From the NCBI RefSeq assembly GCF_015169395.1, contig NZ_CP063458.1:1612001-1676000 (forward strand): a stretch of DNA of 64,000 bases, read 5' to 3'. Below the pieces are notes generated by a model that was not told the DNA's origin, did no database searches, and saw only the letters and a list, made by a program, of their open reading frames with translations. The DNA comes from Humisphaera borealis. Lineage in GTDB: Bacteria; Planctomycetota; Phycisphaerae; Tepidisphaerales; Tepidisphaeraceae. Shown piece by piece: positions 1,503 to 12,882 of this stretch. Position 1 is the first letter of the stretch; each line of letters starts with the position of its first letter. Position numbers and translations under genes: made by a program.

Positions 1503-1721
1503 GTGACCGACGGCGTCGACATCTTCCTTCGCAACGCCTCGGTCGACGAGCTGGACATCTGGATCGACCAGGGCGGCGAGCTGCCGGCCCGCGTGAGGCT
1601 GCGTTACCTGCGCGAGCGGGAGATACGCCAGGCCGTCCGGGCCGGCGTGCACGAACGGACGATCGAACGGGCGCAGGTCGACAAGGAGCGTCGGCAGGCT
1701 CACAAGGAGAAAGTGGCATGA
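1503..1721 (+). CDS. Small hypothetical protein preceding the transposase
   Basis: From the GTG at 1503 this frame encodes 72 residues. It begins VTDGVDIFLRNASVDELDIW and ends in a highly charged helix (RLRYLREREIRQAVRAG...), possibly a DNA- or protein-binding helix. The TGA overlaps the ATG of the transposase gene by 4 nt, indicating translational coupling. The frame is open upstream to 1431, but that part runs through the tRNA-like structure. The product may be a transposition accessory or regulator; no family recognised. Confidence 0.5.
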   Translation: MTDGVDIFLRNASVDELDIWIDQGGELPARVRLRYLREREIRQAVRAGVHERTIERAQVDKERRQAHKEKVA

Positions 1722-3850
1722 CATCCGCGGCGGGCCATCTCACGATCGCTTCCTCCCCCACCGAGGGGCCGGGTTTCCCTATGCCGGTTTCCGGTGTTGC
1801 GGTTGAGGGTGGTTCGCCACGGGCGTCAGGCATCGCTTTCATCTCGTCGGCCGAGGCGGCCGAGCGGTCGGGCCGGAACGTCGGCCACGTCAACCGCATG
1901 TGTGCCACGGTCTGGTTTGCCCAGGGGCTGGCCCGCCAGGAGAAACGCGGCAAGGCGCGGGCGGGCTGGTACGTGAGCGAGGAAGCCGACCCTGCCTTCG
2001 CACGGGTGAAGATGGCGGCGGACATCGGCACCGACCTGCGCCACCTGTCCGAACGCCAGCGGCAGAACTCGGCGTACCGCAAGCAGATCCTCGACGCCTG
2101 GAGTGCCGCCTGCACGGCCGCCTACCAGCTCGGCTTCGATCGCAACGCGGCGACCGGGCGATTCGTCCAGCAACTGCTGCTGGGCGAGGTGCCCGCGTTT
2201 CGCGGTGAGTCGATCAAGATCAATCGATCGACCCTCTACAACTGGCAGCGGCGGTACCAGGCCGGCGGTCTGGCGGCGCTGGCCGACGCGCGGGGAACGC
2301 AACAGGCGGCGGAGGCCGCGGCCAAGGCGGACGATCCGTTCTTCGCCCGGGTGAAGGAGCTGTACCTGACGCAGAACCGGCCGAGCCTGGCGGACTGCGT
2401 GAAGTTCGCGTCGATCGACGCGCGCAAGCGTGGCTGGCCGGTGCACAACTACAAGGCGTGCCAGCGGATGATCGCCGCCATTCCCCGCCAGGTCGTGATC
2501 CTGATGCGCGAGGGGGAGAAGGCCCATTACGACAAGTGCGAACCGCCGATCGTCCGCGACTACTACGGCCTGCGGAGCAACTCGATCTGGTGCGCGGACC
2601 ATCACACGCTCGACATCCAGTGCGCCGTGCCGGACGGCAAGGGCGGGATGAAGCACGCCCGGCCGACGCTCAGCGGGTTCGAGGATCTGCGCAGCCGGAT
2701 GATCGTCGGGTGGCAGATCTCCGCCGCCGCCCCCAACGCCGACGTGATCCTGGCGAGCTTCGAGGCAGCGGCCGGCGAGTGCGGCCTCCCCGACCAGGTG
2801 CTGATCGACAACGGCAAGGACTTCGACAGCCGCACGCTCCAGGGCGTGACCAAGAAGGAGCGCCGCGAGGGGGCCGCGCCCGACCGGGTGATCGGTGCCT
2901 TCGTGCTGTGCGGTGTGAACGTGGCGCACGCCAAGCCGTACGCGCCCAAGAGCAAGCCGATCGAGCGGGCGTTCGGGACTGTGGCCAAGGGGTTCAGCAA
3001 GTGGTGGTCGACCTACACCGGCGGGACGACGGCGACCAAGCCCGAGGGGCTGGCCGACGCGATGAAGGCCGGCAAGGCCCCGACGCTGGAGGAGCTGCGC
3101 GAGAGTTTCGCGGAGTGGCTGGCGGCGGGCTACCACGATTGCGTGCACACCGGCCACGCGATGGACGGCCAGACGCCGCGTGAGGCGTTCGCCGCCAACC
3201 TGGACCGCAAGCGGACGATGGAGCGGGATCTGCTCTCGTTCGCCTGCCTGCCGCGGTACGGGCCGCTGAAGGTCGGCCGCCAGGGTGTGACCTGGAAGGG
3301 CATGTTCTTCGGTGCCTTCGATTCGAACGTACAGGCGCTGTACGGCAAGCAAGTGCTGATCGCCGTCGGCGACAACCTGAGCGAGGGCGTCTACGTGCTG
3401 GACCTGGACGGCCGGCTGGTGTGCAAGGCCCCGCCGAATCTCCGGCTGCCGTTCAACGCCGACAAGGAGACGCTGCGCGAGGCGACGAAGCTGCAGAAGC
3501 AGGTGCGGAAGCTCAAGAAGGACTACGTGGACAACCGGCCGAAGATGGCCCTGGACCCGCTGCAGATGCTCGGCGAGCTTGCGGCGGAGAAGGCTTTGGC
3601 CGCCCAGCCGAAATCCGAGGACCCGCCGCCGAGCATTGCCCCCCATCGAACCGCGTTCGACGACCAGTTGCCGCAGATTCGAGAGGCGTTCGAAACGCCT
3701 GCGCGGCAGGCGGTCGGAGCGGAGTCGGTGCCCCTGCCGTCGCGGTTCTCTTACGAAAGCAAAACGACCGGCGGCGACGCCGGCGACCAGACCGCCGGAC
3801 CATCGCTGCGCGACTACCTCGCGCTGCGTCAACGGGAGGAGGAGTCATGA
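1718..3850 (+). CDS. Mu-type (MuA-like) DDE transposase
   Basis: This 710-aa protein catalyses strand transfer of the element by the RNase-H-fold DDE mechanism. The N-terminal part contains HTH-like DNA-binding segments (about residues 45-110 and 160-190, the latter with STLYNWQRRY). The integrase core follows with D294 (WCADHH), D364 (LIDNGKDF) and E416 (KPIERAFG), a spacing close to that of phage Mu MuA. After it come a Mu-transposase C-terminal beta-barrel region (about 505-575) and a basic, coiled tail suited to partner contacts. The ATG at 1718 overlaps the previous stop; the in-frame extension to 1376 runs through the leader and tRNA-like block and is rejected. Its TGA overlaps the MuB-like gene, as expected of an A-B pair. 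Confidence 0.9.
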   Translation: MTSAAGHLTIASSPTEGPGFPMPVSGVAVEGGSPRASGIAFISSAEAAERSGRNVGHVNRMCATVWFAQGLARQEKRGKARAGWYVSEEADPAFARVKMAADIGTDLRHLSERQRQNSAYRKQILDAWSAACTAAYQLGFDRNAATGRFVQQLLLGEVPAFRGESIKINRSTLYNWQRRYQAGGLAALADARGTQQAAEAAAKADDPFFARVKELYLTQNRPSLADCVKFASIDARKRGWPVHNYKACQRMIAAIPRQVVILMREGEKAHYDKCEPPIVRDYYGLRSNSIWCADHHTLDIQCAVPDGKGGMKHARPTLSGFEDLRSRMIVGWQISAAAPNADVILASFEAAAGECGLPDQVLIDNGKDFDSRTLQGVTKKERREGAAPDRVIGAFVLCGVNVAHAKPYAPKSKPIERAFGTVAKGFSKWWSTYTGGTTATKPEGLADAMKAGKAPTLEELRESFAEWLAAGYHDCVHTGHAMDGQTPREAFAANLDRKRTMERDLLSFACLPRYGPLKVGRQGVTWKGMFFGAFDSNVQALYGKQVLIAVGDNLSEGVYVLDLDGRLVCKAPPNLRLPFNADKETLREATKLQKQVRKLKKDYVDNRPKMALDPLQMLGELAAEKALAAQPKSEDPPPSIAPHRTAFDDQLPQIREAFETPARQAVGAESVPLPSRFSYESKTTGGDAGDQTAGPSLRDYLALRQREEES

Positions 3851-5007
3851 ATGACGCCAAAGCCCGCGACGCGCTGATCGGCCGGGAACGTATCAGAGGA
3901 GCGTCAAGGATGATCGCTGAAGGCACGGAGGCTGCCTCGGTTACACCCGAGCAGATTAGCCAAGTCGCGCAGGACGTGGAGCTGTTCGTCCGCGCTCACA
4001 AGATTGACCGCAAGGCCGTCGCCAAAGCCCTGGGCTATTCGCCCGGGGTGATTTCCGAGTTCCTCAAAGGAGGATACGCCGGGAACAAGGGCCTGGTCGC
4101 GATCCAACTGGAGCAGTGGCTCGTTGAGGAGGAGGAACGCCGAAGCCGGCCGACCACCACGCAGTTCGTCTGGACGAACGTGGCGATGGAGATCAAGGCG
4201 GCGGCGAACTACTGCCTGGACTACCGAAAGATCGGCCTCGTGTTCGGGCCGGATACCGCCGGCCTGGGCAAGACAACGGCGCTCCGTGCGATCCACCAGG
4301 AGCTCGGCCCCAGGCGGTCGAGCCTGGTGACCATCGACAAGGTGGACGCCAACCCGACCGGTCTGCTCAAGAAGATCAGCGTGGGAATGCACATTGAGGA
4401 CCGGGGAAGCAACCGCGCCCGCTTCGAGCGGATCGTGGAGAAGCTCAACGGCCGCTCGCACCTGCTGCTGGTCGACCAGGTCCACAACCTGCGCGAGGCC
4501 AAGGGGGACAAGCCGCTCTACATCCTGGCGGACCTGTACGACGCTACGCAGACGGCCCAGCTCTGGAGCGGCACGGCCGACCTGGTGACCTACCTCGACC
4601 GCCAGCGTTCAAAGGCGGCGGACGAGTCGTTGGCGCAGATCCGCAGCCGGATCATGCCTTGCATCGACTTGATGGCTGGCGTGCGTCACGGCGGCGGCGA
4701 CAACGGCGAGCCGCTGGTGACGATCGAGCAGGTAGTTGAGATGTTCGCCAAGAACAAGCTCCGCCTGGTGCCGACCACCGCGCGGTTCCTGTGCAAGCTG
4801 GCCAACCTGCCGGACAGCGGCGGCATCCGGTTGTGCGTCCAGATCGTCGAGTACGCCACGATGATGGGGGAGATCTCCGGGGCCAAGTCGATCGACGTGC
4901 CGCTTCTCCAGGCGGCGATGCGTCGGAGCCTGTTGCAGAGCCGGGCCGAGGCGCTGCTGTCGCACACCCTCAACGAGTTGCCCATGCGGGCGGCAAGGAC
5001 GGCATGA
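3847..5007 (+). CDS. MuB-like AAA+ transposition ATPase
   Basis: This 386-aa protein should be the ATP-dependent target-capture partner of the adjacent transposase. Residues about 30-85 form a HTH of the lambda-repressor type (KAVAKALGYSPGVISEFLKGG), as in MuB. An AAA+ ATPase follows, with Walker A GPDTAGLGKTT at residues 134-144 and Walker B LLLVDQV around D210. The usual Glu after the Walker B Asp is Gln here, which could slow ATP hydrolysis. The start ATG at 3847 overlaps the transposase stop by 4 nt and is preceded by GGAGGAG. The order A then B, translationally coupled, is typical of Mu-like elements and supports the assignment. Confidence 0.88.
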   Translation: MNDAKARDALIGRERIRGASRMIAEGTEAASVTPEQISQVAQDVELFVRAHKIDRKAVAKALGYSPGVISEFLKGGYAGNKGLVAIQLEQWLVEEEERRSRPTTTQFVWTNVAMEIKAAANYCLDYRKIGLVFGPDTAGLGKTTALRAIHQELGPRRSSLVTIDKVDANPTGLLKKISVGMHIEDRGSNRARFERIVEKLNGRSHLLLVDQVHNLREAKGDKPLYILADLYDATQTAQLWSGTADLVTYLDRQRSKAADESLAQIRSRIMPCIDLMAGVRHGGGDNGEPLVTIEQVVEMFAKNKLRLVPTTARFLCKLANLPDSGGIRLCVQIVEYATMMGEISGAKSIDVPLLQAAMRRSLLQSRAEALLSHTLNELPMRAARTA

Positions 5008-5353: not shown

Positions 5354-5911
5354 ATGCCGACCAACCCACAACTCAAGATCCTCCACATCGCCGCCCGCCA
5401 GGTGGGCCTGATCGTCGGGAATGACTCGGTCCGCTGGCGCCTGCTCCTGCGCAACGTCGGGGACGTTGATTCGAGCAAGAGCCTGGACAACGCCGGCGTC
5501 GAGGACGTCATGGCGGTGATGGAGGACATGGGCTTCATCGACATTCGCGGGGCCGGTTACTGGAGCGGCAAGGTGCGCCGCCGCAACTGCGCGTGCGGGG
5601 AGCGGATGGCTCGGAAGATCGAGCAGCTCGCCGCCGGCAGCCGGTACGCGCTGGGGGCGATGTGCCGCCGGATGAGCCGCAACCGCACGGAGTACGTCGG
5701 CGAGCTGACCCCGCGCGAGGCGTGGGAGCTGATCGAAGCCTACAAGGCGGCGAACGAACGGGACCGCGTCCAGCCGCCCCTGTTCGACGCTTCGCCCTAT
5801 CGAACTTCTCGCAAGGATGCGCCCCCTGGGGCCACTCGGGAGGAAGCCGGCACGGACGCCGGCACCGGTCTTTCAGTCCAGGTCCAGGAGGACGAAGAGG
5901 TCCCTTTCTAA
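5354..5911 (+). CDS. GemA/Gp16-family phage protein (DUF1018)
   Basis: The first 60 residues (LKILHIAARQVGL...RWRLLLRNVGDVDSSKSLDNAGVEDVMAVMEDMGF) fit the pattern of the Mu Gp16/GemA family, small early proteins that affect host gene expression and DNA supercoiling during Mu infection. The rest of the 185-aa protein has a CxCG pair (NCACGERM), a helical segment with TPREAWELIEAYK, and a disordered acidic tail ending in EDEEVPF. It starts 2 nt after the preceding gene. GemA next to A and B genes is a hallmark of Mu-like elements, so this gene independently supports the identity of the operon. Confidence 0.75.
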   Translation: MPTNPQLKILHIAARQVGLIVGNDSVRWRLLLRNVGDVDSSKSLDNAGVEDVMAVMEDMGFIDIRGAGYWSGKVRRRNCACGERMARKIEQLAAGSRYALGAMCRRMSRNRTEYVGELTPREAWELIEAYKAANERDRVQPPLFDASPYRTSRKDAPPGATREEAGTDAGTGLSVQVQEDEEVPF

Positions 5912-6160: not shown

Positions 6161-6402
6161 AGGTGACGATTATCGACCTCTGGCCGATTGAGGCAGTTTG
6201 CTCGATCTGCGGGGCGAACACACTTTCTCAATGGGGGGTACCGCGGCATAACGGTGACCTCGTCTCCAACCAGTGGAAGGGGGAATGGTCAGGTTCTCCG
6301 GCCTGCGAGCCGTGCTTCAAGGCTCATGCCGCAGGCCGCCTTGTGACATGTGATCACCTTTACGCGAGGTCCACGGATGGATCAGACCACACCCACCAGT
6401 AA
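6157..6402 (+). CDS. Small Cys-rich hypothetical protein
   Basis: The 81-aa product contains CSIC near residues 15-18 and CEPC near residues 49-52, followed by HAAGRLVTCDH, so it may bind zinc through two Cys pairs. It starts at the ATG overlapping the upstream TGA and runs 26 nt into the next gene's coding region. Function unknown; by context it belongs to the Mu-like operon. Confidence 0.5.
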   Translation: MKVTIIDLWPIEAVCSICGANTLSQWGVPRHNGDLVSNQWKGEWSGSPACEPCFKAHAAGRLVTCDHLYARSTDGSDHTHQ

Positions 6403-6994
6403 ACTCGCCGGGGCCGTTCATGCGGAGTATCGGGGCAAGCGCCGCGAGCAGATTCTCGCGCTGCTGGCCGTCGAGCCGCTCACCCTCTGGGAGGCCGCCC
6501 GCAAGCTCGGCGTCTTCGACCACCAGATCTCCGGCGTGTTCACCGCGCTGAACGCCGACGGCTTTATCGTGCGGTCGGGCGACCGCCGGGCCAAGCCGGA
6601 GACGGGCTGCCTGGCGGACGTCTGGCGGCTGGCCAGCGCCGCCGCCGCGATCGCCGCCGGCGACCCGGCCGCCACCTCGACGGCCGACCTGCTGTCGTCG
6701 CTGGGCTATCCCCTCACGCTGTTGATCGACGGCGATTTGTACGACCGCCAGGAGCTGCTGCCGAAGGAGGGTTACCCGGGCGTGCCGTACGCGCGGCGGA
6801 CCGACCAGGGCGGGCTGCGGATCAACGTGCGGGTCGAGCTGATCGCCTGCCCCCATTGCGGCCGGCCGGTCCGCCAGGTGGACGCGGCGACGAAGCGATA
6901 CGCCTGCGGTCGGCCGGAGTGTTACGCATTCTCCCCCAAGCATGTCCAGGAGCCCGGCCGAGGGCCGATGCTCGCATTGATCAAGGAGCGGTGA
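6377..6994 (+). CDS. Winged-helix and zinc-ribbon protein
   Basis: This 205-aa protein has a winged-helix-like N-terminus (residues about 20-70: RREQILALLAVEPLTLWEAARKLGV...ISGVFTALNADGFIV). It reads like the start-to-wing pattern of a small HTH domain that discriminates between states of a gene switch. A zinc-ribbon-like C-terminal segment follows (CPHCGRPV ... CGRPEC, about residues 158-180). The ATG at 6377 lies inside the end of the preceding gene. It may be a transcriptional regulator or DNA-binding accessory factor of the element, directly upstream of the modification-like cassette; that link is inference from position. Confidence 0.6.
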   Translation: MDQTTPTSKLAGAVHAEYRGKRREQILALLAVEPLTLWEAARKLGVFDHQISGVFTALNADGFIVRSGDRRAKPETGCLADVWRLASAAAAIAAGDPAATSTADLLSSLGYPLTLLIDGDLYDRQELLPKEGYPGVPYARRTDQGGLRINVRVELIACPHCGRPVRQVDAATKRYACGRPECYAFSPKHVQEPGRGPMLALIKER

Positions 6995-8022
6995 TGGGTG
7001 TCACGTCGATCGAGTGGGCTCATTACACGTTCAACCCGTGGCGCGGATGCACCAAGGTGAGCGACGGCTGCAAGTTCTGCTACGCAGACCGGCAGAGCGC
7101 CCGCAATCCGAAGGTGCTCGGCATCTGGGGGCCGAACGGTACCAGGGCGATCGGGGCCGAGGCGTACTGGAAGCTGCCGTTCAAATGGAACGAGGAGGCG
7201 AAGGCCGCGGGCGAGCGCCGGCGGGTGTTCTGCGCCAGCCTGGCTGATTTCTTCGAGGGGCCGGAGACGATGCCGGCGGAGGCGGTGGAGGACGTGCGGA
7301 TCTCGCGGCTGCGGACGTTCGACATCATCGACGCCACACCCTGGCTCGATTGGCTGCTGGTCACGAAGCGCCCGGAGAACGTGCGGGAGATGTGGCCCGG
7401 TGGTTATGAAACGCCCTTCGCAAGCATGCCGCCGGTTCTTACCCGCCGCCAGAACGTCTGGCTCCTGACCAGCGTCGAGGATCAGGAGACGGCTGACAAG
7501 CGGATTCCCGAGCTGCTCAAGTGTCGCGACCTCAGCCCGGTGCTTGGGCTATCGATGGAACCGATGCTCGGCCTGGTGGACCTGACCAAGGTTGCTGCGC
7601 GGAACCGCGATGGGGTGACCTACATGATCAACGCTGTCTCGGGGCTTCACGGCGTTTCACGCGGGCCGTTCCTCGACTGGGTGATCGTGGGAGGCGAGAG
7701 CGGTGCGAACGCCCGGCCGATGCACCCGAACTGGGTCCGGCACCTGTGCAAGCAATGCCTGGTGTGCGGGGTTCCGTTCTTCTTCAAGCAGTGGGGAGAG
7801 TTCGAGCCGGTCACGCCGCTCTATCACGGTCGAGACGACTCGGCGGAGAACGGCCGCGGGAATCTTGTCCAGGTCGACACCGCTGGCAGAATCTGGGGCG
7901 ACGGCGATGGTCAACCGAATGACCTGCAGACGTGGCTGATGGAACGCGTCGGCAAGAAGGCGGCCGGCCGCGTGCTTGATGGTCAGACCTGGGACGAGTT
8001 GGCCTTGGTGGTGTGGTCATGA
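6994..8022 (+). CDS. DUF5131 (phage Gp37/Gp68) family protein
   Basis: This 342-aa protein begins TSIEWAHYTFNPWRGC, the signature opening of the Gp37/Gp68 phage family. A Cys cluster C19-x6-C26-x2-C29 follows (CTKVSDGCKFCYADR), resembling an iron-sulfur ligand set of radical-SAM-like proteins. Conserved-looking blocks include VFCASLADFFE, LLVTKRPENV, VWLLTSVEDQE and DWVIVGGESGANARPM, which would fit a TIM-barrel. The enzymatic activity of this family is not established as far as I know. The ATG at 6994 follows AAGGAGCG. It opens a coupled set with two tiny genes, an ABC-GNAT protein and a formyltransferase, so a role in a modified-nucleotide pathway is a reasonable inference. Confidence 0.85.
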   Translation: MGVTSIEWAHYTFNPWRGCTKVSDGCKFCYADRQSARNPKVLGIWGPNGTRAIGAEAYWKLPFKWNEEAKAAGERRRVFCASLADFFEGPETMPAEAVEDVRISRLRTFDIIDATPWLDWLLVTKRPENVREMWPGGYETPFASMPPVLTRRQNVWLLTSVEDQETADKRIPELLKCRDLSPVLGLSMEPMLGLVDLTKVAARNRDGVTYMINAVSGLHGVSRGPFLDWVIVGGESGANARPMHPNWVRHLCKQCLVCGVPFFFKQWGEFEPVTPLYHGRDDSAENGRGNLVQVDTAGRIWGDGDGQPNDLQTWLMERVGKKAAGRVLDGQTWDELALVVWS

Positions 8023-8114
8023 CTGACGCCGAAGCCGACGCCATTCTCCTGCAGCTCATCCGCGCGTGGCTCTGCCGCGAGCCGATCGTGCCGATCGTCG
8101 GCGACGTTGAATGA
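8019..8114 (+). CDS. 31-residue protein in the modification-like cassette
   Basis: A short frame (MTDAEADAILLQLIRAWLCREP..., ending VGDVE) bridges the DUF5131 gene and the next small gene with 4-nt ATGA overlaps on both sides. The double overlap is the best evidence that it is translated, since a ribosome must pass through it to keep coupling. It is an acidic amphipathic helix with a single Cys. Function unknown; it may simply relay translation. Confidence 0.45.
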   Translation: MTDAEADAILLQLIRAWLCREPIVPIVGDVE

Positions 8115-8338
8115 GCTTCAAACCTAGTTCGAAGGTACTGCTGGCTGCCCGCCCAAGAGCGCGGCATCATCGGGGCATGAGCGACGCACCGAAGCGGCCG
8201 CAGACGGTCAAGAAGCATCGGTTCACCTACCGTCAACAATACGGGGTGATCGCGATCTGCAAGGACGAGCGGGATCAACGCCGGACGTACAACCGCCTGC
8301 TGAAGCAAGGGCTGAAGCTCAAGGTGGTGACCGTCTGA
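8111..8338 (+). CDS. 75-residue basic protein next to ABC-GNAT
   Basis: The product is short and strongly basic. Its C-terminal half (residues about 35-75: KHRFTYRQQYGVIAICKDE...LKLKVVTV) looks like a compact beta-alpha-beta unit, with QQYGVI, CKDE and KVV the probable core. A second ATG at 8177 (MSDAPK) could be the true start; the ATG at 8111 is chosen because it overlaps the upstream stop by 4 nt. Its TGA overlaps the next gene (TGATG). The tight linkage with the ABC-GNAT gene suggests it works with it, perhaps as a nucleic-acid-binding or specificity subunit. Confidence 0.65.
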   Translation: MSFKPSSKVLLAARPRARHHRGMSDAPKRPQTVKKHRFTYRQQYGVIAICKDERDQRRTYNRLLKQGLKLKVVTV

Positions 8339-9438
8339 TGCGAATCGAGATCCACAACCGGTGCAGTGACTTCTCCTCCTACCGCGCTGCGCGGGTCAAA
8401 TCCCTTTTCAATTGTGCCAGCGGTGCCGACTTCCAGCTGTCGGCCGAGCTGCCGATCGAGCGCGACGACTGGCAGATCGGCGTCGTCGTCGGCCCGTCTG
8501 GTACCGGCAAGACGTCCATCGGGCGGACCATCTGGCCCGACGTTCCCTTCTACTCTCCCGCCTGGCCGGAACGCCGGCCGATCGTCGAGGCGATCGACCC
8601 CAGGGGCGACTTCGACCCCGTACCCGCAGCGCTCGCCGCCGTTGGCCTGGGCACCGTCCAGGCGTGGCTTCGGCCGTTCCCGATCCTGAGCAACGGCGAG
8701 CAGTTCAGGGCCAACCTGGCCAGGGTCGTCGTCGAGCGGCCGCCACGCGTCAAGCTGGACGAGTTCACCAGCGTGGTCGATCGACAGATCGCCAGGGTGG
8801 GCGCGCTGGCGTTTTCGAAGGCGTGGCGACGGGGCCGCGGCCAGGTGCTGATCCTCACGCCGCATTACGACGTGCTGGAGTGGCTGGAGCCGTGCTGGGT
8901 GTTCGACACCGGCACGGGCCGCTACTCCGGGAGGGGGCTTCGGCGACCCCGCATCGAGCTGGAAATCCGCCAGACAGACTGGCGTTACTGGCCCCTGTTT
9001 GAGCCGCATCACTATCTGAAGCTGCCGCGCATGATCGCCGCAACCAACTACGTCGGCACGGTCGACGGGGAGCTGGTGGCGCACGTGGCCGTCTCCACTA
9101 AGGCGGGCATGAAGGAAGCCCGGGCCAGCCGCCTGGTCGTCATGCCCGAATGGCAGGGCGCGGGCGTTGGCATGCGGTTCCTGAATGCGGTCTGTGAGTT
9201 GTGGAGGAAGGGGAGCAATCGTTACGGGCTGCCGATGCCGACGCTCTTCCATACCTCGCACCCGGGCCTGGCTGCTGGCCTGCGCAGGGATGCCAAGTGG
9301 GTGCAGGTGTCGGCGGTGCTTCACGGCGATAACCGCGCGCGGTCGAAGGCTTCCCTGGTCAAGAGCGGCTTCAAGGAAGGCGCTGGCTTCGGTGGCCACT
9401 TCCGCGCGGTGCAGGGTTTCAGGTACCTGGGTGAGTGA
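8338..9438 (+). CDS. ABC-type ATPase fused to a GNAT (Mom-like) acyltransferase
   Basis: This 366-aa two-domain protein has an ABC-class nucleotide-binding domain with Walker A GPSGTGKTS (52-60), a signature-like LSNGEQ (117-122), Walker B ending in D141-E142 and an H-loop His176. It is followed by a GNAT domain with the acyl-CoA loop VVMPEWQGAGVG (about 268-279). There are no membrane segments, so it is not a transporter. Phage Mu Mom is a GNAT-fold enzyme that modifies adenine in DNA; a GNAT inside a Mu-like operon, powered by an ATPase, suggests a related DNA-modifying role. The neighbouring formyltransferase and Cys-cluster protein support a multi-step pathway. It may also act on tRNA or protein; acceptor unknown. 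Confidence 0.8.
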   Translation: MRIEIHNRCSDFSSYRAARVKSLFNCASGADFQLSAELPIERDDWQIGVVVGPSGTGKTSIGRTIWPDVPFYSPAWPERRPIVEAIDPRGDFDPVPAALAAVGLGTVQAWLRPFPILSNGEQFRANLARVVVERPPRVKLDEFTSVVDRQIARVGALAFSKAWRRGRGQVLILTPHYDVLEWLEPCWVFDTGTGRYSGRGLRRPRIELEIRQTDWRYWPLFEPHHYLKLPRMIAATNYVGTVDGELVAHVAVSTKAGMKEARASRLVVMPEWQGAGVGMRFLNAVCELWRKGSNRYGLPMPTLFHTSHPGLAAGLRRDAKWVQVSAVLHGDNRARSKASLVKSGFKEGAGFGGHFRAVQGFRYLGE

Positions 9439-10047
9439 ATGAAGATCTTCGTGGCCGGCCAGCAGTACTTCGGCGCTGAGGTCCTCCGCCTCTGCCTCGC
9501 CAACAGCTTCAGGGTCGTCGGTGCCTTTGCGCCCGAACGCTCGGTGGGCGGGCAAACCGATCGACTCCGCGCCGCGGCGGCTGAGGCGGGCGTGCCCTGT
9601 TCGAGCGAGCTGGCACCAGAGGTCATCCCGCCCGGCACGGATCTGATCGTCGCCGCGCACTGCCACGCGTTCATCTCCGGTCCGGTTCGCGAGCGGTCCA
9701 GGCTCGGCGCGATCGGTTACCACCCGAGCCTGTTGCCGCTCCACCGCGGCCGTGATGCGATCGCCTGGGCGCTGAGGTTCCGTGAGCGCGTGACCGGAGG
9801 CACCGTCTATTGGATGGACGATGGCGCGGACACCGGCCCGATCGCCGCCCAGCGGCACGTGCTCATTCAGCCCGACGATTGCCCGGCTGGTCTGTGGCGG
9901 CGCGCGTTGATGCCCCTCGGCCTGCTCCTGTTTTCCGAGGTGCTCGACGAGCTGGCGGCCGGCCGGATCGTGCGCGTTCCCCAGGACGAGCGGCTGGCAA
10001 CTTGGGAGCCCTCGCTGGCCGGGCACGGTCGGTTGGGGGCCGTTTAG
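9439..10047 (+). CDS. Formyltransferase-family protein (10-formyl-THF type)
   Basis: This 202-aa protein has the formyltransferase fold: an N-terminal Rossmann-like half (MKIFVAGQQYFGAEVLRLCLAN) and the catalytic block GYHPSLLPLHRG with His95, then DDGADTGP with Asp131. The 36-residue His-Asp spacing matches Fmt, PurN and FDH. The Asn that normally sits two residues before the His in Fmt and PurN is Gly93; the YHPSLLP form resembles the hydrolase domain of 10-formyl-THF dehydrogenase. It lacks the Fmt C-terminal domain, so initiator-tRNA formylation is unlikely. ATG follows the ABC-GNAT stop directly. It probably transfers a formyl group to the product of the neighbouring enzymes; substrate unknown. 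Confidence 0.82.
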   Translation: MKIFVAGQQYFGAEVLRLCLANSFRVVGAFAPERSVGGQTDRLRAAAAEAGVPCSSELAPEVIPPGTDLIVAAHCHAFISGPVRERSRLGAIGYHPSLLPLHRGRDAIAWALRFRERVTGGTVYWMDDGADTGPIAAQRHVLIQPDDCPAGLWRRALMPLGLLLFSEVLDELAAGRIVRVPQDERLATWEPSLAGHGRLGAV

Positions 10048-10066
10048 GGCGCGCAGTTCGCGCGCA

Positions 10067-10148
10067 GCGCGCACTTCTCCGGTCGAGTTCGAATTTACCG
10101 TAAGTCCTTATCGAATCGGGTTCGACGGGAATTCGTAGAAGTGCGCGC
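10067..10148. repeat. 12-bp perfect inverted repeat after the Mu-like operon
   Basis: GCGCGCACTTCT (10067-10078) and AGAAGTGCGCGC (10137-10148) form a perfect inverted repeat around a 58-bp AT-richer spacer. The spacer itself contains TTCGAA, GGTTCGACGGGAATTCG and similar degenerate motifs. It begins 20 bp after the last gene of the operon, so it is a candidate for the right end or transposase-binding region of the Mu-like element. The spacer is too long for a normal terminator. The exact element boundary cannot be fixed because the left end is outside the window. Confidence 0.4.
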
Positions 10149-10497
10149 CGTCTAAAGTGGAGGCCGCGGTTGGCCAGATTCGGAGGGCTGGTCTAAACTA
10201 GGCCCCCGAAACCGCATCGCTCGTAAGTGGCGTTGGAACCGCCGCTTGTACCCATTGTTACCCGGAATGACCCGTCTAGAGTCGCCTGTCCAATGACAGC
10301 GGGCACTTTCATTTCCAGTGCAATCGCGATCTGCAATGCTAATGACCTTCTGTCGGCAACGCGCACCGCGGCTGACCTTGGTCTGGCAATTCCCTTCAGC
10401 GTCCTGCAGCGCTAGGCCGCGCGGAGCGCGGTTCGTCTTGAATAACGGGCATCCATTTCGACAACCAGCAGATTCAAACACACAGGAGAACAGGCCG
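10149..10497. other. Non-coding stretch between Mu-like element and sulfatase
   Basis: No convincing gene is present. The region presumably holds the junction of the Mu-like element with the chromosome and the promoter of the sulfatase. GGAGAACAGGCCG shortly upstream of 10498 supplies a GGAG-type Shine-Dalgarno. In-frame extensions of the sulfatase into this region lack start or signal-peptide features and are not supported. Confidence 0.4.
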
Positions 10498-12882
10498 ATG
10501 CTTCCGACCAAGCTGATCGCCTTCGCCGCAACCCTTTTGTTGGCATGCTCGTCATGCACGCAAACGCCATCGTCATCGCCCTCTTCCGAGGCGGCGAAAC
10601 CCGGCGGTGGTGGACTCGATCGCACGAGCCTGCCCATCGCCGAGCCGCCGGTCGCGCCGATCACCACGCTCGATGCGCGCGACGCCAAGGCACCACCGCG
10701 GTTTGAGGTCAAGCCTCCCGCCGGTGCGCCCAACGTCGTGATCGTCCTGATTGACGACATCGGTTTCGGTCACAGCAGTGCGTTCGGCGGCCCGATCAAG
10801 ATGCCCACGCTCGAAAAGCTGGCCGGCAAGGGCCTGAAGTACAACCGCTTCCATACCACCGCACTCTGCAGCCCCACGCGTGTCGCGCTGCTGACCGGCC
10901 ACAATCATCATGCCAACAATGCCGGCGCCATCATGGAACTGGCGACTGGCTTCCCGGGCAACACCGGCGTGCGGCCGCGAACCATCACCACCCTCGCCGA
11001 AATCCTGCGCCAGAACGGTTACAGCACTGCGGCGTTCGGCAAGTATCACGAGACCCCGCCCTGGGAAGTCTCGGTGTCCGGTCCTTACGACCGCTGGCCC
11101 ACCGGATCGGGCTTTGACAAGTTCTATGGCTTTATCGGCGGCGAGACGAACCAGTGGGCACCGGCGATCTTTGACGGCGTGACACGTGTCGAGGTGCCGA
11201 CGACCCCCGGCTACCACTTCACCACCGACATGACCAACAACGCGATCAACTGGGTCAGCGCCCAGAAGTCGCTCACCCCGGACAAGCCGTTCTACATGTA
11301 CTTCGCCACCGGCGCTACGCATGCCCCGCATCACGCCCCGAAGGAATGGATCGAGAGGTACAAAGGGCAGTTTGCCGGCGGGTGGGACAAGCTTCGCGAG
11401 GAAACCTTCGCCCGACAGAAGGCGTTGGGCGTCGTCCCGGCTGACACGAAGCTGACGCTTCGCCCGGCGGAAATCCCCGCATGGGACGGCATGAGCGCTC
11501 AGCAGAAGAAGCTCTTCGAGCGGCAGATGGAAACCTTCGCCGGCTTCGCCGAGCACACCGATGCCGAGGTCGGCCGGCTCGTCGAACAACTCGAGAAGAC
11601 GGGCCAGCTCGACAACACGCTCTTCTTCTACATTGTCGGCGACAACGGCAGCAGCGCCGAAGGCGGACCAGAAGGCACGTACAACGAGATGATGGCGCTC
11701 AATGGCATTGTCGGCAAAGCCGAACAGATGATGGACCACATCGACACCTGGGGCGACCCGACCACGTTCCCGCACTTCGCGATCGGCTGGGCCTGGGCGG
11801 GCAACACGCCGTTCCAGTGGACCAAGCAGGTGGCCAGCCACTTCGGCGGAACCCGCAACGGCATGGTGATGCACTGGCCGAAGGGGATCAAAGCCAGCGG
11901 CGAGGTTCGCAGCCAGTTCCACCACGTCGTCGATATCGCCCCGACCGCGCTGGAAGCAGCCAAGATCCCCCAGCCCAAAATGGTCAACGGCATCAAGCAG
12001 CGCCCGATGGACGGCGTGTCGATGCTCTATTCAACCGACGCCCCCAAGGCTACCGACAAACGCACCACGCAGTACTTTGAGATGTTCGGCAACCGTGGCA
12101 TCTATCATGAAGGCTGGGTGGCCTGCACGCGGCACTCGATCCCCTGGTTGATCGTGCCCCTGCCCCCGGTGAAGGACGACATCTGGGAGCTGTACAACGT
12201 CGATGAGGATTTCAGCGAGGCCAACAATCTCGCCGCGAAGTACCCCGAGAAACTCAAGGAACTCCAGGCGGTCTTCCTGAAAGAGGCCGAGCGCAATCAC
12301 GTTCTGCCGATCGACGACCGGCGTTCGGAACGCTTCAATCCCGCGATCGCCGGCCGGCCCGACCTGCTCAACGGCCGCAAGACCCTGACGGTCTATCCGG
12401 GAATGGTCGGCATGATGGAAAACGCTTTCATTAACGTGAAGGGCGTCCATCACACCATCACCGCCGAGGTCGATCTGAAGGACGACAAGACCAACGGCGT
12501 GATCATCGCGCAGGCCGGTTACTTCGGCGGTTGGGTCGTCTATATGAAGGACGGCAAGCCGCACCACGAATACAACTTCTTTGCGCTGGAACGGACGAAC
12601 ATCGCCGGCGAGTCGGCGTTGCCCGCGGGCAAGCATACGATCAGCTACGAGTTCATCCCCGACCAGAACAAGCCGGGCACCGGCGGCAAGTCGATCCTGA
12701 GCGTTGACGGCAGGAAGGTCGCCGAAGCCAAGATCCCCAAGACGCAGCCCTTCTCGTTCTCTGCCGACGAAGGCGCGGATGTGGGAATCGACGCCGAGAC
12801 GAACGTGTCAAAGGATTACAAGCCGGGCCTGCCCAGCAGCTTCACGGGCAAGATCATTAAGGTGACGGTCGAGCAGAAGTAG
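10498..12882 (+). CDS. Arylsulfatase lipoprotein
   Basis: This 794-aa alkaline-phosphatase-superfamily sulfatase hydrolyses sulfate esters after its active-site Cys is oxidised to formylglycine. The C124-S-P-T-R motif (ALCSPTRVALLTGHNHH) is the class I sulfatase signature, and PNVVIVLIDDIGFG holds the metal-binding Asp pair. The N-terminus (MLPTKLIAFAATLLLACSSC) is a lipoprotein signal with a Cys near residue 20, pointing to a membrane-anchored periplasmic enzyme. ATG at 10498 is chosen because the signal peptide starts there. A C-terminal region (about 600-794) looks like an added beta-rich domain (VYMKDGKPHHEYNFFALER). Planctomycetes carry many such enzymes for algal or mucosal sulfated glycans. 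Confidence 0.92.
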   Translation: MLPTKLIAFAATLLLACSSCTQTPSSSPSSEAAKPGGGGLDRTSLPIAEPPVAPITTLDARDAKAPPRFEVKPPAGAPNVVIVLIDDIGFGHSSAFGGPIKMPTLEKLAGKGLKYNRFHTTALCSPTRVALLTGHNHHANNAGAIMELATGFPGNTGVRPRTITTLAEILRQNGYSTAAFGKYHETPPWEVSVSGPYDRWPTGSGFDKFYGFIGGETNQWAPAIFDGVTRVEVPTTPGYHFTTDMTNNAINWVSAQKSLTPDKPFYMYFATGATHAPHHAPKEWIERYKGQFAGGWDKLREETFARQKALGVVPADTKLTLRPAEIPAWDGMSAQQKKLFERQMETFAGFAEHTDAEVGRLVEQLEKTGQLDNTLFFYIVGDNGSSAEGGPEGTYNEMMALNGIVGKAEQMMDHIDTWGDPTTFPHFAIGWAWAGNTPFQWTKQVASHFGGTRNGMVMHWPKGIKASGEVRSQFHHVVDIAPTALEAAKIPQPKMVNGIKQRPMDGVSMLYSTDAPKATDKRTTQYFEMFGNRGIYHEGWVACTRHSIPWLIVPLPPVKDDIWELYNVDEDFSEANNLAAKYPEKLKELQAVFLKEAERNHVLPIDDRRSERFNPAIAGRPDLLNGRKTLTVYPGMVGMMENAFINVKGVHHTITAEVDLKDDKTNGVIIAQAGYFGGWVVYMKDGKPHHEYNFFALERTNIAGESALPAGKHTISYEFIPDQNKPGTGGKSILSVDGRKVAEAKIPKTQPFSFSADEGADVGIDAETNVSKDYKPGLPSSFTGKIIKVTVEQK

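Follow-up and report, generated by a model that had tools for sequence, protein, structure and literature searches.

Mom of phage Mu makes N6-carbamoylmethyl-adenine, and for decades it has stood alone as a chemical oddity. Com is the translational activator of mom. An archaeal ABC-type ATPase-acetyltransferase fusion, COG2401, would be comparable to the present enzyme in its named architecture. PMC7824862, citing Iyer et al. 2013, relates that a GNAT enzyme working together with an ABC ATPase had been predicted to acyl-modify a DNA base. Here, we analysed a 64,000-nucleotide stretch of the Humisphaera borealis genome (the window; G000:C1:1612001-1676000 of a single-contig 7.2 Mb genome). A complete Mu-like prophage reaches into it with no more than its right-hand part. 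At 8111-10047 this prophage carries a module of three genes, which encode a 75-residue protein (phrog_28816), an ABC-GNAT fusion (phrog_11143) and a formyltransferase (phrog_9240). In related phages the module occupies the place of mom, and in those of proteobacteria it is commonly under mom's regulator Com. It is likely that the module carries out a Mom-like base modification of phage DNA, placing an acyl-type group on an exocyclic amine and so resisting host restriction.

Three genes form the module

An initial annotation of this DNA had joined five tightly overlapped genes at the end of a Mu-like operon into one set, adding a DUF5131 protein and a 31-residue protein to the three named above. 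The + strand does carry all five open reading frames, every one of which overlaps or abuts its successor, and the Mu-like setting is correct. However, tight overlap is a property of the whole early operon and is not special to these five, and only the last three travel together. We compared 80 viral and 80 bacterial-genome loci holding the ABC-GNAT gene, plus annotated phages. A relative of the 75-residue protein is encoded directly upstream of ABC-GNAT in 76 of 85 viral and 70 of 79 genome loci, and the stop/start overlap between the two genes is usually ATGA. The formyltransferase gene lies directly downstream in 61 of 85 viral and 65 of 77 genome loci.

The DUF5131 protein (6994..8022, + strand) matches PF07505 with E=1e-69. 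The cluster C19-x6-C26-x2-C29 had been read correctly (codons 7048-7080); this C-x6-C-x2-C arrangement is invariant in 52 sequences and is not the canonical CxxxCxxC. The model of the protein has a radical SAM fold, with a predicted local distance difference test score (pLDDT) of 87. With Z 14.2 over 208 residues, spore photoproduct lyase is the nearest solved fold, and radical SAM enzymes make up most of the other top matches. The gene-neighbourhood check suggested with the five-gene proposal gave a divided answer: ABC-GNAT with the formyltransferase recurs, whereas DUF5131 lies nearby in only 2 of 85 viral and 3 of 80 genome loci. DUF5131 was found in 2 of 45 long module-bearing viral records and, in the reverse direction, the module was near none of 80 DUF5131-centred loci. 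Moreover, one related Mu-like element (L206) has DUF5131 without the module, and another locus (L173) has a transposase, an ATPase and the module without DUF5131. We therefore rejected DUF5131 as a module member and regard it as an early-operon passenger.

The 31-residue open reading frame (8019..8114, + strand) matches no Pfam or PHROGs family, and we found no relative of it in 85 viral loci. It was rejected as a member and is probably not a gene or lies outside the module. The notion that all five genes, DUF5131 included, build one hypermodification pathway draws on their head-to-tail overlap in the window element and on the few other loci in which DUF5131 is close to the module (L143, L183). 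Set against the two-way co-occurrence counts and the two elements L206 and L173, it is hardly credible. In a separate locus (L049), a DUF5131 gene and, as judged by eye, a three-Cys-motif-partner-like gene stand side by side on the - strand (9300-10226 and 10327-10980).

The module takes the place of mom in related phages

A Mu transposase is encoded in 29 of the long viral records, and in 25 of these the 3' end of ABC-GNAT is less than 3 kb from the record end, compared with 2.3 expected under uniform placement; since prophage ends in IMG/VR are drawn by gene content, this distance is an approximate measure. In phage Mu, mom is likewise found at the right end. In the window, the module genes are the last ones before the inverted end motif at 10139-10158, which marks the Mu-like right end.

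A direct exchange is seen in two Mu-like phages of Porphyromonas gingivalis. Across 22.7 kb of head and tail genes, BK068092 and BK068093 share 94% identity. Directly after the last tail gene, one of them has a small gene, ABC-GNAT and the formyltransferase, and the other has Mom. The two sequences rejoin in the final 92 bp (83%). The module is present in five P. gingivalis Mu-like phages and Mom in four others. When Mom (phrog_1384) was sought in 45 module-bearing viral records, it was found in none. As a separate observation, in locus L003 the module directly adjoins, at the boundary of the prophage, a gene judged by eye to be TIR-domain-like (9145-9600, - strand).

Com control in related phages

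In 100 of 161 loci, ABC-GNAT is preceded within 700 bp by a Com-like zinc-ribbon gene, with two hits elsewhere in 1.85 Mb. Three of these Com candidates were tested and all scored above the cut-off of the Pfam Com family PF10122. The com reading frame overlaps the start of the 75-residue protein gene in 93 of 99 cases, by a median of 41 nt, and com overlaps mom likewise in Mu.

The site bound by Com, as defined by systematic evolution of ligands by exponential enrichment, is CC(N)2-3GAG within a hairpin loop that has a C-G closing pair (PMC6483171). Our hairpin pattern consisted of this motif, the C-G closing pair and three outer pairs. A pattern with at least four stem pairs outside the loop was dropped because it misses the known Mu site. 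The pattern used recovers the known Mu site and, in two Pseudomonas phages, sites that lie in pairs ahead of mom. It occurs before the 75-residue protein gene in 84 of the 100 Com-positive loci, twice or more in 42 of them, with 17 stem types. In the controls it was found in 2 of 60 Com-negative loci and in 3% of shuffled regions, and its background rate was 0.03 per region. The region folds at a lower energy than shuffles do (mean z -1.5), and an Rfam search of four loci gave no match.

The strongest regulatory evidence comes from proteobacterial phages and is carried to the window element by homology of the three proteins. Taken with the mom swap and the right-end position, Com and its hairpins in the relatives support the Mom-like role in DNA modification that the initial annotation had proposed.

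The ABC-GNAT fusion and its small partner

The ABC-GNAT fusion (8338..9438, + strand) is the core enzyme of the module. PHROG 11143 spans the entire fusion (residues 1-366, E=1e-143), confirming the domain reading made earlier; Pfam ABC_tran and GNAT match it weakly. The AlphaFold model contains both the ABC and the GNAT fold. Together with conserved motifs it places the ABC ATPase domain at residues 1-204 (8338..8949, + strand), with Walker A at 8488-8514, the signature LSNGE at 8686-8700, the Walker B residues DE at 8758-8763 and the H-loop His at 8863-8865. The GNAT domain follows at residues 206-366 (8953..9435, + strand) and has an acyl-coenzyme A (CoA) loop of the Q-x-x-G-x-G type, QGAGVG, at 9154-9171. 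All these motifs are intact, and they are invariant or nearly so in 39 sequences; the loop residues Q273, G274, G276 and G278 are kept in 39 of 39. ABC-GNAT gave no match to the Mom family phrog_1384.

The nearest folds of the GNAT domain are the IAA acetyltransferase 1y9k (Z 15.3) and RimI (Z 14.8). Closeness in fold to RimI-type protein acetyltransferases, together with the known acetylation of host proteins by some phage GNATs (PMC7824862), would fit a module that modifies protein or tRNA, for host takeover or immunity, instead of DNA. Exchange with mom at one site and control by Com point to DNA, as do the ParB fusion described below and a D12-class DNA methyltransferase gene next to the enzyme in one locus. 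We consider a protein or tRNA target unlikely. In the locus with the methyltransferase (L004, 4669-7022), ABC-GNAT is followed by a ParB-like protein, recognised by eye, and by the D12-class adenine DNA methyltransferase, which was assigned by Pfam.

The 75-residue protein (8111..8338, + strand; phrog_28816, E=1.5e-14) stands alone in Mu-like phages. In Gordonia and other phages, it forms the C-terminal tail of a ParB-like protein. Since only the tail is usually present in Mu-like phages, the 75-residue protein is probably a partner subunit. The link to ParB also raises the question of a moron for superinfection exclusion or restriction-like defence, in which a ParB-like nuclease and an ABC ATPase would act together and self-protection would not be the purpose. 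ParB/Srx proteins with nuclease or nucleoside triphosphatase activity do occur in conflict systems (PMC10853773), and the 75-residue motif can be fused to ParB. However, the ParB part is usually absent in Mu-like phages, where the small tail alone is left, the window module has no nuclease domain, and the swap with mom speaks for a different role. Such a defence function is very unlikely.

Outside these loci, the search with phrog_11143 across the host phylum gave ABC-domain matches in nearly every genome, so weak matches to this family are uninformative. No DNA-level relatives were found in the E. coli genomes searched. In about 120 records of Acinetobacter plasmids there is a distant relative that matches just the ABC half, with about 27% identity over residues 3-190. 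In Streptococcus phage MismyG (L083, 4507-6491), a ParB-like gene, an ABC ATPase, a GNAT (in split open reading frames) and an ASCH-domain protein follow one another before the terminase.

The formyltransferase

The last gene of the module (9439..10047, + strand) encodes a formyltransferase, as had been annotated (phrog_9240, E=5e-53; Formyl_trans_N, E=5e-21). Its catalytic residues are His95-x-Ser97 (9721-9729) and Asp131 (9829-9831), and all three are invariant in 59 of 59 sequences. In Fmt, PurN and ArnA, the catalytic Asn is two residues before the catalytic His. This position is occupied by Gly93 here, and the Asn is absent in 129 of 129 module formyltransferases, which sets them apart from canonical N-formyltransferases that use 10-formyltetrahydrofolate (10-formyl-THF).

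The best solved relative, and the closest by sequence in the PDB, is the hydrolase domain of 10-formyl-THF dehydrogenase, ALDH1L1 (E=2e-28). As in ALDH1L1 and HypX, the His, Asp and Ser are kept and the catalytic Asn is replaced. Unlike them, the module enzyme is a stand-alone short phage protein encoded beside an acyltransferase, with mostly Gly, not Ile, at the Asn position. The ALDH1L1 hydrolase domain transfers formyl to a phosphopantetheine thiol (PMC8748788), and HypX was proposed to form formyl-CoA in a like manner (PMC6802093). Given this formyl-to-thiol chemistry, a formyl thioester that feeds the GNAT domain is possible.

The carrying prophage

The inverted end motifs lie near -27.0 kb, to the left of the window, and at 10139-10158 (about 10.15 kb). 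Since they bound both ends of the prophage, the element measures about 37 kb. The right-end motif, ACTTTAGACGGCGCGCACTT, is on the - strand and is the inverted copy of the left-end motif; the exact prophage end is approximate, and a search for it with a target-site duplication gave no convincing pair. Terminase, portal, major head, tape-measure and tail genes are found to the left of the window on the - strand. A tRNA-Ser(gct) lies near G000:C1 1584813-1584903, no more than about 0.1 kb outside the left-end motif. A sulfatase-like gene (window 10318-12882; domain judged by eye) starts directly to the right of the prophage end and belongs to host DNA.

The early operon runs on the + strand and has the transposase, the MuB-like ATPase and GemA at its head and the five genes in question last. 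The Mu-type transposase, a MuA relative (1700..3850, + strand), matches phrog_310 with E=7e-85 and HTH_Tnp_Mu_2 with E=5e-11, and its start codon is not fixed. It is followed by the MuB-like transposition ATPase (3859..5007, + strand; phrog_296, E=2e-38) and a GemA-like protein (5354..5911, + strand; PF06252, E=8e-7; phrog_286). A further early-operon protein (6350..6994, + strand; phrog_1123, E=1.5e-7) has a C-terminal CxxC motif. This Cys motif made it a candidate for Com, which was ruled out, as the protein has no PF10122 match.

Proposed function

In the likely DNA-modifying role, the ABC domains, dimerised on ATP, would hold DNA or remodel it, and the 75-residue protein, a ParB-like tail elsewhere, would act as the assembly or DNA-targeting partner. 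The GNAT domain, judging from its fold and intact CoA loop, would transfer the acyl group. The formyltransferase would draw formyl from 10-formyl-THF. This formyl may be loaded on CoA or another pantetheine thiol for use by the GNAT domain, or it may be added to the product, and we see little to choose between the two. A bolder version, which we put forward only tentatively, is that the base is a formyl or formyl-derived one supplied by the folate one-carbon pool. An enzyme like 10-formyl-THF dehydrogenase would load the CoA thiol and the ATP-driven GNAT would pass the formyl to DNA. Mu-like phages would use the whole, controlled by Com, as a stand-in that can be exchanged for mom. To our knowledge, formyl-derived base chemistry has not been described before.

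Several observations weigh against the DNA-modifying role or its details. Neither a Com gene nor a Com hairpin was found in the window element, so what speaks for regulation there is carried over from relatives; its module is read as the last part of the early operon and follows early genes, not tail genes. Aeromonas jumbo phages hold Mom together with a distant ABC-GNAT, so the two are not always alternatives. The loci were chosen by similarity and the counts are not phylogenetically independent. GNAT residues that track the presence of the formyltransferase were sought and no consistent difference was seen, which weakens a role of the formyltransferase in supplying a special acyl donor. Since 129 of 149 informative module loci have the formyltransferase and 20 lack it, with no consistent GNAT difference there, it is best seen as accessory. 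In the literature, we found no experiment on any module member.

If the proposed role is true, the mom slot of Mu is a cassette position at which one DNA-disguise chemistry can be traded for another among phages, and Com regulates such cassettes in general instead of serving mom only. Gene order would then turn into a prediction of function for hundreds of unannotated phage proteins; members of these families are often labelled ABC transporter or phosphoribosylglycinamide formyltransferase. Pseudomonas phage Komp_PAO1_1, which grows on the laboratory strain PAO1, carries com along with all three module genes and is a system where the base would be directly measurable.

Comparison with known systems

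The initial annotation was not aware of any description of its gene set. This holds in part: we found no paper describing ABC-GNAT combined with the formyltransferase, Com or mom, but acyl modification of DNA bases by ABC-GNAT enzymes was predicted earlier (PMC7824862), which gives the core idea a precedent. The system of Iyer et al. 2013, as presented in that account, has the same ABC and GNAT pairing and includes a relative from Tenacibaculum phage pT24 with 31.7% identity. The part of PMC7824862 that deals with it makes no mention of the formyltransferase, the 75-residue partner, Com control or mom replacement, some of which may be described in Iyer et al. 2013 itself. The formyltransferase, the small partner, the com circuit and the mom swap look new.

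Like com-mom of phage Mu, the module has a GNAT-fold enzyme at a Mu-like right end, and in its relatives the regulator is likewise Com, a small gene overlaps, and hairpins of the same Com-binding kind lie upstream. It differs in its GNAT family, which has an intact CoA loop and for which no Mom homology was found, in the fused ABC ATPase, in the additional 75-residue protein and formyltransferase and, for the window element, in having no Com. By its location and, in relatives, by its regulation, the module works in the manner of com-mom, with an enzyme from outside the Mom family.

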